DNA of 64,000 bases from an uncultured Verrucomicrobiota bacterium (lineage in GTDB: Bacteria > Verrucomicrobiota > Kiritimatiellia > CAIVKH01): the NCBI GenBank assembly GCA_937872895.1, contig CALMUP010000008.1:289613-353612 (forward strand), written 5' to 3'. A model generated the notes under the pieces. The model saw nothing but the letters and a program-made list of their open reading frames with translations. It ran no database searches and was not told the origin of the DNA. The translations under genes and the position numbers were made by a program. The stretch's first letter is position 1, and each line of letters opens with the position of its first letter. Positions 34,486 to 37,557 of the stretch are shown here, piece after piece.

Positions 34486-35430
34486 TCAAATCGCGTTGCG
34501 GCGGTAATACGGGAAGCGGGCCGGGTCATCGCCCGGCGGAACGTATTTCCAACGCTTGTAGGTCCAGAGCCAGTGGTCCGGCTTGACACGCAGAATGGAT
34601 TCCAGTTCCGCCGTGATCCGTTCGGTAAGCGTGCGCACGGCGACCGAGGTGTCTCCGGTCTGGTACGGCGTGATGTCCAACTCCAAACCATGCTCCCCGA
34701 TATAGGAGCCATCGGGTTGCGGGGTCAACATGCCTATAAAGATGTTCGCGCCGGTTTTCAGTGCCAGGCCGGCCGGAGCGGTTGAAACCGGAACGGGCAG
34801 ACCGAAGAACGGCGTGAAGATTCCGCCCTCGGCGAGTTTGGTGTTCTGGTCGAGCACCAGGGCGATCTTCCCTTGTTGCTGGAGGATGCGCAGCAGGGTA
34901 CGGACCGCTCCTTCGCGCCGAACAATCTTCTGTCCGTTCTTGTGGCGTGCCTCGATGAACATTGCGTCCACTTCGGGGTTTTTAAGCGGCTTGGCCACGC
35001 TATGCAGCGGGTACCCCCGGGCCGTCACGGCCATACCGAGCACCTCCCAGTTTCCGTAGTGGGCGGTTACGCAGATGTGCGGCCGCGGGTTGAACAGCAC
35101 ATCAAAGGATTGGTCAAAGGTAACCCAGCGTGCGATGCGCTCCTCGGTCCGGTGCGAAAACCAGAAGGCATCCAGCAGTACGAGGGAAAACGAGCGGAAC
35201 GAGGAACGCAGGATCCGTTGTTTTTCCGCGCGGGTTTTGCTGGTGCCGAACGCGAGGTCGAGATTGGTTTCGCCGATACGGCGCACCGTGCGACTGAACC
35301 GGTAGCCAAGCGTGCCGAACACGTTGGCGAGGGCGACCACGCCTCGCCGGGGCAGGTGGGGTATGATCCGGAACCCGAGACGGGTCAACGCGGTTTCCGC
35401 GCGGGCGCGTATGGGATAACGTCGGTTCAT
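34486..35430 (-). CDS. lpxL: LpxL/HtrB-family lipid A acyltransferase
   Basis: 314 residues. It belongs to the lysophospholipid/lipid A acyltransferase family that adds a secondary acyl chain to Kdo-lipid A at the inner membrane. Visible are the N-terminal hydrophobic region, the HX4E catalytic motif in TAHYGNWEVLG, the RREGAVRTLLRIL and VLDQNTKLAEGGIFTPFFG segments, and the end WLWTYKRWKYVP typical of the family. Which acyl chain or position it serves cannot be told. The start ATG (35430) lies 19 nt after the tRNA-Lys CCA end and has no SD, so the message may come from tRNA processing. Confidence 0.88.
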   Translation of the reverse strand: MNRRYPIRARAETALTRLGFRIIPHLPRRGVVALANVFGTLGYRFSRTVRRIGETNLDLAFGTSKTRAEKQRILRSSFRSFSLVLLDAFWFSHRTEERIARWVTFDQSFDVLFNPRPHICVTAHYGNWEVLGMAVTARGYPLHSVAKPLKNPEVDAMFIEARHKNGQKIVRREGAVRTLLRILQQQGKIALVLDQNTKLAEGGIFTPFFGLPVPVSTAPAGLALKTGANIFIGMLTPQPDGSYIGEHGLELDITPYQTGDTSVAVRTLTERITAELESILRVKPDHWLWTYKRWKYVPPGDDPARFPYYRRNAI

Positions 35431-35449
35431 GGGGTAACGCTACCGATGG

Positions 35450-35525
35450 TGGTGAGCCGGGCGGGGCTCGAACCCGCGACCACAAGATTAAAAGTCTCGT
35501 GCTCTACCAACTGAGCTACCGGCCC
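35450..35525 (-). tRNA. tRNA-Lys (anticodon TTT)
   Basis: Full cloverleaf on the minus strand: acceptor GGGCCGG / CCGGCTC with one G-T pair, D arm GTAGCTCAGTTGGTAGAGC, anticodon loop CTTTTAA, T arm CGCGGGTTCGAGCCCCGC-like, encoded discriminator A and CCA. 76 nt. It is followed 19 nt later by the acyltransferase ATG. Confidence 0.97.
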
Positions 35526-35551
35526 GGCAGCGAGGAAAACAAGAGCGTGCA

Positions 35552-35580
35552 AAGCTATTAAACAGATCAACGTTTGTCAA
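35552..35580 (-). promoter_or_regulatory. tRNA-Lys promoter
   Basis: On the minus strand: consensus -35 TTGACA (35575-35580), 17-bp spacer, -10 TAGCTT (35552-35557), with the tRNA 5' end 26 nt beyond the -10. The -35 bases are shared with the divergent rhomboid promoter. Confidence 0.65.
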
Positions 35581-35602
35581 AAACCTTTCTCAAACCTATA
35601 CT
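35574..35602 (+). promoter_or_regulatory. Rhomboid gene promoter, leaderless geometry
   Basis: -35 TTGTCA (35574-35579), 17-bp spacer, -10 TATACT (35597-35602), then 9 nt to the ATG at 35612, so the transcript should begin 1-3 nt before the start codon. No SD. The -35 overlaps the tRNA-Lys -35 on the other strand by five bases. Confidence 0.65.
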
Positions 35603-35611
35603 AGCCACCGT

Positions 35612-36400
35612 ATGCGATTCAACCATGGAATCTTCCAGGCCGGTCAGTTGACCCGGGGTGTAGCCTTGCTGCTCGGGGCGTGTGGCGGCGTGTTTGCGTT
35701 GCAGGTGATCCTTCCGACGGCGATGGAGAATGAATTCGTACGATTGTTTGGTCTCAGCGTGGATGGGATCAAGCAAGGCTGGTGGTGGCAGGTCATGACG
35801 TACGGGTTGTTGCATGGAAACCTGCTGCATATCCTCCTGAACATGCTCGGGCTGTATTTCCTTGGTCCCGAGCTGGAGCGGCACATGGGTTTCCCGGCGT
35901 TTCTGGTCATGTTCGGATGTTGCGTGGTCCTCGGTGGGCTGGGGTGGCTGGCCATGATGTATCCGACCGAGGGGGTGTGTGTCGGGGCTTCCGGAGGTAT
36001 CTTCGGGTTGATCGGAGCGTTTGCCGGATTCTTCCCGCGACGGCAGATCACCTTGCTTGTCTTCTTTGTCTTGCCGGTGACCATGCCGGCCTGGTTGATG
36101 GGGGCTTTGTTCGGTTTGGTTCAGTTGGCTTACCTCTTTGATCCCGGGCCATCGGGTATAGCGTATGCCGCCCACCTGGCTGGTGGCATCGCCGGGTATG
36201 TCTTTGCGCGTTTGGCGATGCGGCCACGTACCGCCATGCGCTATGATGTGCAGCGTCGTTCCATGTTTGCGGCGGACAGCCCGAGTTCGGAAGAGATCGA
36301 TCGAATTCTCGACAAGATTTCCCGCGAAGGCATCCACACCTTGACGCCTCGCGAGCGGGATCAGTTGCAGCGGGCCGGGAAACGCAGCCGGGGGTGGTAA
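35612..36400 (+). CDS. Rhomboid intramembrane serine protease
   Basis: 262 residues. It cleaves transmembrane helices of substrate proteins within the inner membrane. Features are a first helix after VALLLGACGGVFALQVIL, the L1 loop (WWWQVMTYGLLHGNLLHILLNMLGLYFLG, containing the family H-x-x-x-H-x-x-x-N pattern), the catalytic GASGGIFGLIGAF (Ser in TM4), and the catalytic His in YAAHLAGGIAGYVFARL (TM6). A soluble C-terminal tail of about 60 residues (EEIDRILDKISREGIHTLTPRERDQL) is the short helical motif seen at the end of many bacterial rhomboids. The substrate is unknown. Confidence 0.93.
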   Translation: MRFNHGIFQAGQLTRGVALLLGACGGVFALQVILPTAMENEFVRLFGLSVDGIKQGWWWQVMTYGLLHGNLLHILLNMLGLYFLGPELERHMGFPAFLVMFGCCVVLGGLGWLAMMYPTEGVCVGASGGIFGLIGAFAGFFPRRQITLLVFFVLPVTMPAWLMGALFGLVQLAYLFDPGPSGIAYAAHLAGGIAGYVFARLAMRPRTAMRYDVQRRSMFAADSPSSEEIDRILDKISREGIHTLTPRERDQLQRAGKRSRGW

Positions 36401-36423
36401 CGACGCGTCGTGCGGGAAAATCC

Positions 36424-36452
36424 TTTTCACCCGGACCGCTGCGCCCTACTGT
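36424..36452 (+). promoter_or_regulatory. Possible tRNA-Leu promoter
   Basis: TTTTCA (36424-36429), 17-bp spacer, TACTGT (36447-36452), with the tRNA 5' end 15 nt later. The match to consensus is weak; the tRNA may instead be read from the rhomboid promoter. Confidence 0.3.
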
Positions 36453-36467
36453 AGCAGCCGCCTCTTC

Positions 36468-36553
36468 GCCCGGGTGGTGAAATGGCAGACACAAAGGACT
36501 TAAAATCCTTTGACCGCAAGGTCGTGCGGGTTCGAGCCCCGCCCCGGGCACCA
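36468..36553 (+). tRNA. tRNA-Leu (anticodon TAA)
   Basis: 86-nt class II tRNA: acceptor GCCCGGG / CCCGGGC, anticodon stem AAGGA-CTTAAAA-TCCTT, long variable arm TGACCGCAAGGTCGT, T arm GCGGG-TTCGAGC-CCCGC, discriminator A and encoded CCA. An amidase ATG begins 5 nt after the CCA. Confidence 0.97.
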
Positions 36554-36558
36554 TCACC

Positions 36559-37557
36559 ATGACATTATCGCCCGTAATCAAAAGCATGCGTTACGCCTTG
36601 GCCCTCCTGGGTCTATGGTGCTGCTCCACGGCGGCCAACGCAGGCATCAAGCCTTTCGTGCATGAGGGCGTGCGTTATGTCCGGCTGGAAGAGCTTGCCA
36701 CGTTTTATGGCGGAGTGATGGAACCGGTGCCCAACGGGGGGATATGGGTCAAGAACGCCTTCGCCGATCTGTTGTTCCGTCCGGACAGCCGGGAGTTGCG
36801 GGTCGCCAATGTCATGGTGTGGTTGCATGAACCGATGACCAGGGTTCGGGGGCATTGGGCGATCCGTGAGGGCGATGCCTTGTTCGTGGTGGATCCAATC
36901 GTTCGCCCGGGTGAATACTTGAGGCGCGCGGGTTCACGGGTCATCATGCTGGATCCCGGCCATGGTGGTCAGGATACCGGTGCCAAAGGCAAACGCGGGG
37001 TCGAGGAGAAGCGGGCGGTACTCGACATCGCCCGAAGGGTCCGGGCCCATCTACAGGCAGCTGGGCTCACCGTGCACATGACCCGGGAGGGCGACCGGTT
37101 CGTCGAACTGGAAGAGCGGGCCCGCATCGCCAAACGAGCCGGTGCTGATCTCCTGGTCAGCATTCATCTCAACTCGGCGGCGAGCACCATGGCCCAAGGG
37201 GTTGAAACTTTTGTCCTTGCCGCACCAGGCTTCTCCTCCACGGCGGGTGGATCGAAGAGCGGGGCGCAGCCGGGGAATCAACATGGTCCCGCCAGTGCAC
37301 AACTCGGATTCCAGATCCAGCGGGCCTTGGTGGAGATACCCGGGGTGGTCGATCGCGGTATCAAACGGGCCAGGTTTATCGTTTTACGAAATGCCCCGTG
37401 CGCGGCGGTGCTGGTTGAGTGCGGGTTTTTATCCCATGCCGAGGAAGAGCGGCGGTTTTTGCAGGAGTCTTACCGGGAGGAAGTTGCACGCGGCATTGCC
37501 AAGGGGATCATGAATTATGTACGCTTATCCCGACAATCGCAAAGGGTAACACCATGA
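36559..37557 (+). CDS. N-acetylmuramoyl-L-alanine amidase (Amidase_3)
   Basis: 332 residues from ATG 36559; ATG 36586 (MRYALALLGLWCC) is an alternative that leaves a more typical signal peptide. It cleaves the amide bond between MurNAc and the stem peptide in the periplasm, usually for daughter-cell separation. After a signal peptide ending near AANA comes a copper-amine-oxidase-N-like or AMIN-like segment (about 30-125), then the zinc amidase domain with VIMLDPGHGGQDTGAKG, E in GVEEKRAVLDIA, SIHLNSA and the final catalytic VLVECGFLSHAEE. The start is 5 nt behind the tRNA-Leu CCA and has no SD. The stop overlaps the next gene start (ATGA). Confidence 0.92.
   Translation: MTLSPVIKSMRYALALLGLWCCSTAANAGIKPFVHEGVRYVRLEELATFYGGVMEPVPNGGIWVKNAFADLLFRPDSRELRVANVMVWLHEPMTRVRGHWAIREGDALFVVDPIVRPGEYLRRAGSRVIMLDPGHGGQDTGAKGKRGVEEKRAVLDIARRVRAHLQAAGLTVHMTREGDRFVELEERARIAKRAGADLLVSIHLNSAASTMAQGVETFVLAAPGFSSTAGGSKSGAQPGNQHGPASAQLGFQIQRALVEIPGVVDRGIKRARFIVLRNAPCAAVLVECGFLSHAEEERRFLQESYREEVARGIAKGIMNYVRLSRQSQRVTP

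Follow-up and report, generated by a model that had tools for sequence, protein, structure and literature searches.

Probable co-transcription of the lipid A acyltransferase gene lpxL with tRNA-Lys in the Kiritimatiellia

The stretch of DNA analysed here (the window, 64,000 nt of contig CALMUP010000008.1, assembly GCA_937872895.1) comes from an uncultured Verrucomicrobiota bacterium of the class Kiritimatiellia, whose genome (G000) comprises 3.87 Mb in 51 contigs. It carries lpxL, which codes for a lipid A acyltransferase of the LpxL/HtrB family, immediately behind a tRNA-Lys(UUU) gene, and an N-acetylmuramoyl-L-alanine amidase gene immediately behind a tRNA-Leu(UAA) gene. Comparative sequence analysis indicates that lpxL is very likely co-transcribed with tRNA-Lys from the tRNA promoter, because promoter sites are found before the tRNA and none before lpxL. 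Release of the lpxL mRNA with a short leader by tRNA 3' processing is plausible and the best inference from the sequences. The model that joins these elements (tRNA-Lys promoter, tRNA 3' processing, and a short-leader lpxL mRNA translated independently of a Shine-Dalgarno (SD) sequence) is given a probability of about 0.6. A sequence-only reading of the window had proposed that both envelope genes are tied to tRNA transcription; this is supported for lpxL, whose link extends to 22 families and mostly has a promoter site before the tRNA, but is weak for the amidase, found behind a tRNA in G000 only among the 30 loci scanned.

Conservation of the tRNA-Lys-lpxL pair

An lpxL orthologue was detected (E<=1e-50) in 136 of the 193 genomes of the class, and 137 lpxL loci (a few genomes contribute two copies) were scored for tRNAs up to 700 nt upstream. 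A same-strand tRNA is present within this distance in 51 loci belonging to 22 families; without exception, its identity is tRNA-Lys(UUU). On the lpxL tree (121 rows) linkage is accounted for by 15 changes, versus 35 with shuffled labels; since the isoacceptor is always the same, an ancestral link that was lost several times is more probable than one gained several times, and the operon is probably ancient in the class. Long flanks were available for 18 of the linked loci. Among these, the rhomboid gene upstream is confined to the family of G000, and the gene on the far side of lpxL is common to three families, so that the pair persists where its neighbours change. No report of a tRNA-Lys-lpxL operon was found in the open-access literature.

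The expectation that relatives would conserve the spacing between tRNA and coding sequence held for adjacency but not for distance. The gaps of the 49 linked loci with a scorable start begin at 5, 7, 7, 8, 9, 10 (four loci) and 12 nt; they measure up to 30 nt in 28 loci and up to 50 nt in 39, with a maximum of 443 nt, and this range rules out fixed spacing as a conserved feature.

Upstream of lpxL in another relative (G003, L037 1370-1470), a tRNA-like sequence occupies the place where tRNA-Lys would be. Neither ARAGORN nor Rfam accepted it, and the locus was counted as unlinked; it is possibly a decayed tRNA-Lys.

Transcription of the unit

Forty linked loci whose gap does not exceed 60 nt were scanned for sigma70-type promoters of the form TTGACA-N16-18-TAnnnT (scored out of 12), comparing the 80 nt upstream of the tRNA with the 80 nt upstream of lpxL. 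Sites scoring at least 9/12 precede the tRNA in 28 of the 40 loci (15 families) and the lpxL start in none, in agreement with the earlier claim that lpxL lacks a promoter of its own in the gap, as far as recognisable sigma70-type sites go. Mean scores were 8.45 before the tRNA, 4.7 before lpxL and 5.8 in shuffled upstream sequence (Wilcoxon p=4e-8 and 2e-7). The G000 site, TTGACA-N17-TAGCTT, ends 26 nt ahead of tRNA-Lys. The two genes, as judged from sequence, are adjacent on the same strand, with no terminator between them and a promoter only before the tRNA, as in a tRNA-mRNA operon. The next gene past lpxL in G000 is convergent, so that the unit consists of tRNA-Lys and lpxL alone.

Translation start and leader of lpxL

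The position of the lpxL start, 19 nt past the CCA of tRNA-Lys, was confirmed by the tRNA ends given by ARAGORN and Rfam together with the open reading frame (ORF), and the start codon is pinned by homologues, whose N-termini begin within a few codons of 35430. The amidase may start 27 nt further downstream. As had been read, neither gap (CCATCGGTAGCGTTACCCC before lpxL, TCACC before the amidase) holds an SD, and neither contains a terminator hairpin or T-run.

In linked loci whose gap is at most 30 nt, an SD match of at least 4 nt precedes 3 of the 28 starts (all GTGA, in family f2), compared with 13 of the 21 linked lpxL genes with longer gaps and 26 of the 86 lpxL genes lacking the tRNA (Fisher p=2e-4 for short versus long gaps, p=0.047 for short gaps versus unlinked loci). 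Weaker mRNA structure was considered as a special trait of linked starts and discarded, the difference from unlinked starts being not significant (p=0.055).

These figures have to be read against SD use in G000, surveyed in 306 genes called mechanically (ORFs scored by codon use, ~464 kb). An SD core was found at 41% of starts and at 18% of internal ATGs; as 59% of starts lack it, a missing SD at two genes is unremarkable alone. The anti-SD was assumed to be canonical, with a CCUCC core, because no 16S rRNA was recovered from the G000 assembly; this core has been reported for Kiritimatiellae (PMC10783764).

Leaderless mRNAs have been defined, in archaea, by a 5' untranslated region shorter than 8 nt (PMC10783764). 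A cut at the CCA would leave 19 nt before lpxL in G000, over this limit, and the message would therefore have a short leader rather than be near-leaderless as first proposed; a cut deeper in the trailer is possible, and some relatives have tRNA-Lys-lpxL gaps of 5-7 nt.

Proposed mechanism

A single sigma70-type promoter ahead of tRNA-Lys would drive both the tRNA and lpxL. RNase P would free the 5' end of the tRNA; on the 3' side an endonuclease (the likeliest candidate being the RNase E/G homologue) would cut within the short trailer, and the tRNA would then be trimmed to its CCA. The released lpxL mRNA would have a monophosphate at its 5' end and a leader not exceeding the gap (at most 19 nt in G000), and would be translated by SD-independent short-leader initiation, mainly once the tRNA is removed; the reason offered is that the gap leaves little or no room for an SD and puts the folded tRNA right next to the start codon. 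The steps that follow transcription (processing and SD-independent initiation) are inferred. As to the enzymes, G000 encodes an RNase E/G homologue over the cut-off (474 bits) but no RNase Z over its cut-off, and the 19 relatives searched show the same picture, save for the missing RNase E/G match in the congener G001 mentioned below.

If correct, the model would provide a bacterial case, replicated by nature in 22 families, of an envelope-gene mRNA whose 5' end is set by a stable-RNA promoter together with tRNA maturation. Lipid A acylation would be coupled to tRNA supply. The gap before this one gene varies widely in the class, from 5 to more than 100 nt, with and without an SD, and so offers a natural series from which the minimal length of a processed leader, and when an SD is needed, could be learned. 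A wider reading is tentative and somewhat doubtful: excision of tRNAs would serve the class as a regular means of making short-leader, SD-independent mRNAs of chosen housekeeping genes (lpxL behind tRNA-Lys and, in some lineages, prs behind tRNA-Gln), and translation of an outer-membrane lipid enzyme would thereby be gated by tRNA maturation and follow the growth-rate control of stable RNA.

Alternative explanations for lpxL

Several observations weigh against the processing model. The tRNA is absent from 86 of the 137 lpxL loci of the class, and the variable gap length (5-46 nt in most, up to 443 nt) implies no fixed processing geometry. The scarcity of SDs at short gaps is partly a matter of room. 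RNA folding predictions gave no consistent sign that the tRNA blocks the lpxL start codon, and folding was set aside as evidence on cleavage-gated translation, which it neither supports nor excludes. No RNase E/G match was found in the congener (G001), possibly through incompleteness.

One rival is a plain tRNA-mRNA operon, in which lpxL is expressed from the tRNA promoter and initiates independently of an SD on uncut or variously trimmed RNA, tRNA removal being incidental. Such an operon rests on the same comparative evidence for co-transcription; SD-less initiation is common in G000, and predicted accessibility of the start codon is often alike with and without the tRNA. At gaps of 5-10 nt, however, a folded tRNA falls inside the usual upstream footprint of the ribosome, and SD matches are commoner at long-gap than at unlinked loci, suggesting that short gaps work differently; the plain operon is held to be rather unlikely. 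Rather less probable is a promoter of lpxL's own inside the tRNA gene, using for instance the AT-rich anticodon loop as -10 element, which would make lpxL independent of tRNA transcription. A weak match (GTGAAA-N18-TAAAAT, 9/12) does overlap the anticodon loop of tRNA-Leu, and the loop of tRNA-Lys(UUU) is likewise AT-rich, but the region before lpxL scores below shuffled sequence, and the threshold of 9 is reached there at no locus in the sigma70-type scan.

The tRNA-Leu-amidase junction

An ATG is indeed present 5 nt past the CCA of tRNA-Leu, but an in-frame ATG at 36586 may be the start instead. From the latter, the protein begins with a compact signal peptide (MRYALALLGLWCCSTAANA), and the nine codons 36559-36585 fit the codon use of G000 poorly, so that the 5-nt gap may not be the real one; the leader would measure 5 nt from the first ATG and 32 nt from the second, on either side of the 8-nt limit.

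In a scan of 30 amidase loci (G000 and 29 from relatives, with flanks up to 1.5 kb in most), a tRNA was found within the flanks in G000 only, and conservation of the tRNA-Leu-amidase pairing is rejected for these loci. The order in G001 is tRNA-Leu, 44 nt, a gene for a protein of 873 aa that resembles phosphoenolpyruvate (PEP) synthases in part and below the cut-off (L101:308-2929), and the amidase, whose GTG start overlaps the stop of that gene. A homologue 74% identical lies on another contig of G000 (C20:89413-91986, L244), so that, on the comparison of these two genomes, the gene moved or one of its copies was lost, leaving the amidase behind tRNA-Leu. The sequences are best explained by a recent, local junction with the geometry of the lpxL one, arisen when the separating gene was no longer there. 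A promoter-like motif before tRNA-Leu, TTTTCW-N17-TACTST, is common to both genomes.

For the amidase, then, the somewhat favoured account is that the junction arose by chance when a gene was recently lost or relocated, and that the real start is the ATG at 36586, giving a leader of ~32 nt and no near-leaderless message. The relatives' loci devoid of a tRNA, the PEP-synthase-like gene intervening in G001 and the poor codon fit all speak for it, but the N-terminus counted from 36559 has 40 aa before VRLE, about the length in the congener (39 aa), and the AUG at 36559 is predicted to be unpaired in the released message with 0.86, against 0.49 for that at 36586. The part concerning recent loss and that concerning the start codon may be right or wrong separately.

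In a further relative (G007:C2:287837-290576; L103, L118), an intact tRNA-Leu(UAA) is followed downstream by a tandem array of ~7 units of 379 bp that are 99% alike. Every unit contains a small ORF for a GIY-YIG nuclease (PF01541, E=3e-11) and a GGCAGG hairpin, and repeats the 3' portion of tRNA-Leu. The array has the look of a small mobile element by which the 3' half of the tRNA is duplicated.

Features of the locus and other tRNA-gene junctions

The coordinates are collected in Table 1. The LpxL-family protein scores under the NCBIfam equivalog cut-offs, so the assignment is to the family and not to an exact acyl specificity. Elsewhere in G000, where 7 of 41 tRNA genes have a same-strand coding sequence at most 34 nt away, gaps of 20 and 28 nt separate tRNA-Pro(GGG) and tRNA-Ser(CGA) from unknown genes, tRNA-Gly(CCC) lies 21 nt before a coding sequence with an SD, and tRNA-Thr(GGT) lies 56 nt before tuf (identified by Pfam), also with an SD; prs, likewise identified by Pfam, follows tRNA-Gln(UUG).

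Table 1. Features of the two tRNA-gene junctions (window positions) and the tRNA-Gln-prs locus of the same genome
Feature	Position	Strand	Evidence or remark
tRNA-Lys(UUU), upstream cistron of the tRNA-Lys-lpxL unit, encoded CCA	35450-35525	(-)	ARAGORN; Rfam RF00005, 72.4 bits
Putative sigma70-type promoter of the tRNA-Lys-lpxL unit, TTGACA-N17-TAGCTT, 9/12	35552-35580	(-)	Equivalents before tRNA-Lys in most linked relatives
Trailer/leader, 19 nt, CCATCGGTAGCGTTACCCC, CCA of tRNA-Lys to lpxL ATG	35431-35449	(-)	Sequence
lpxL, LpxL/HtrB-family lipid A acyltransferase, 314 aa	34486-35430	(-)	Pfam PF03279 (Lip_A_acyltrans), E=1.3e-37
Rhomboid-family gene, between the two tRNA genes	35612-36400	(+)	
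Putative tRNA-Leu promoter, TTTTCA-N17-TACTGT	36427-36455	(+)	Read from sequence; TTTTCT-N17-TACTCT in congener G001
tRNA-Leu(UAA), encoded CCA	36468-36553	(+)	ARAGORN; Rfam RF00005, 58.2 bits
Gap TCACC, 5 nt, CCA of tRNA-Leu to first amidase ATG	36554-36558	(+)	Sequence
N-acetylmuramoyl-L-alanine amidase (Amidase_3), 332 aa from first ATG	36559-37557	(+)	Pfam PF01520, E=8.4e-51
Alternative amidase ATG, in frame	36586-36588	(+)	Would make the gap 32 nt
tRNA-Gln(UUG)-prs in G000	L091, C28:166011-167037		11-nt gap, no SD

Comparison with known systems

The thrU-tyrU-glyT-thrT-tufB cluster of E. coli is a tRNA-mRNA operon. The lpxL unit resembles it in combining tRNA and protein gene on one strand under one promoter, with an mRNA that tRNA processing frees or, for lpxL, would free, and G000 itself carries a comparable pair in tRNA-Thr(GGT)-tuf. 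It differs in having a lipid A acyltransferase as partner and a single tRNA, and in its gaps, 5-46 nt in most loci, the short ones mostly without an SD. In mitochondrial tRNA punctuation, tRNA excision sets the 5' end of messages with little or no leader, much as it would define that of the lpxL message; here, in contrast, a single gene pair is concerned and not an entire genome, the gaps are usually nonzero, the ribosomes are bacterial, and the cut would probably be made by RNase E/G and not RNase Z.

In ICEKp1 of Klebsiella, int is transcribed together with tRNA-Asn from the promoter of the tRNA, and RNase E cuts the joined RNA (PMC13023037), so that a downstream gene is likewise expressed from a tRNA promoter and the RNase E cut provides a precedent for the lpxL model. 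There, the distance is ~200 bp and the gene is the integrase of a mobile element, whereas the lpxL pair is chromosomal, housekeeping and present in many families. A tRNA-driven integrase of an integrative element was rejected as an explanation of the two junctions, the downstream genes being an acyltransferase and an amidase, with no integrase.

The closest parallel within the class is tRNA-Gln(UUG), which directly precedes prs in all 29 readable loci (L373-L402) with gaps of 10-112 nt; compared with tRNA-Lys-lpxL, its gap varies more and SD matches are frequent. The tRNA-Gln-prs order also occurs in other bacteria. Operons of tRNA and mRNA are a known kind; what is new here is the gene paired with the tRNA, the number of families that have the pair, and how closely the two are spaced with no SD between them.

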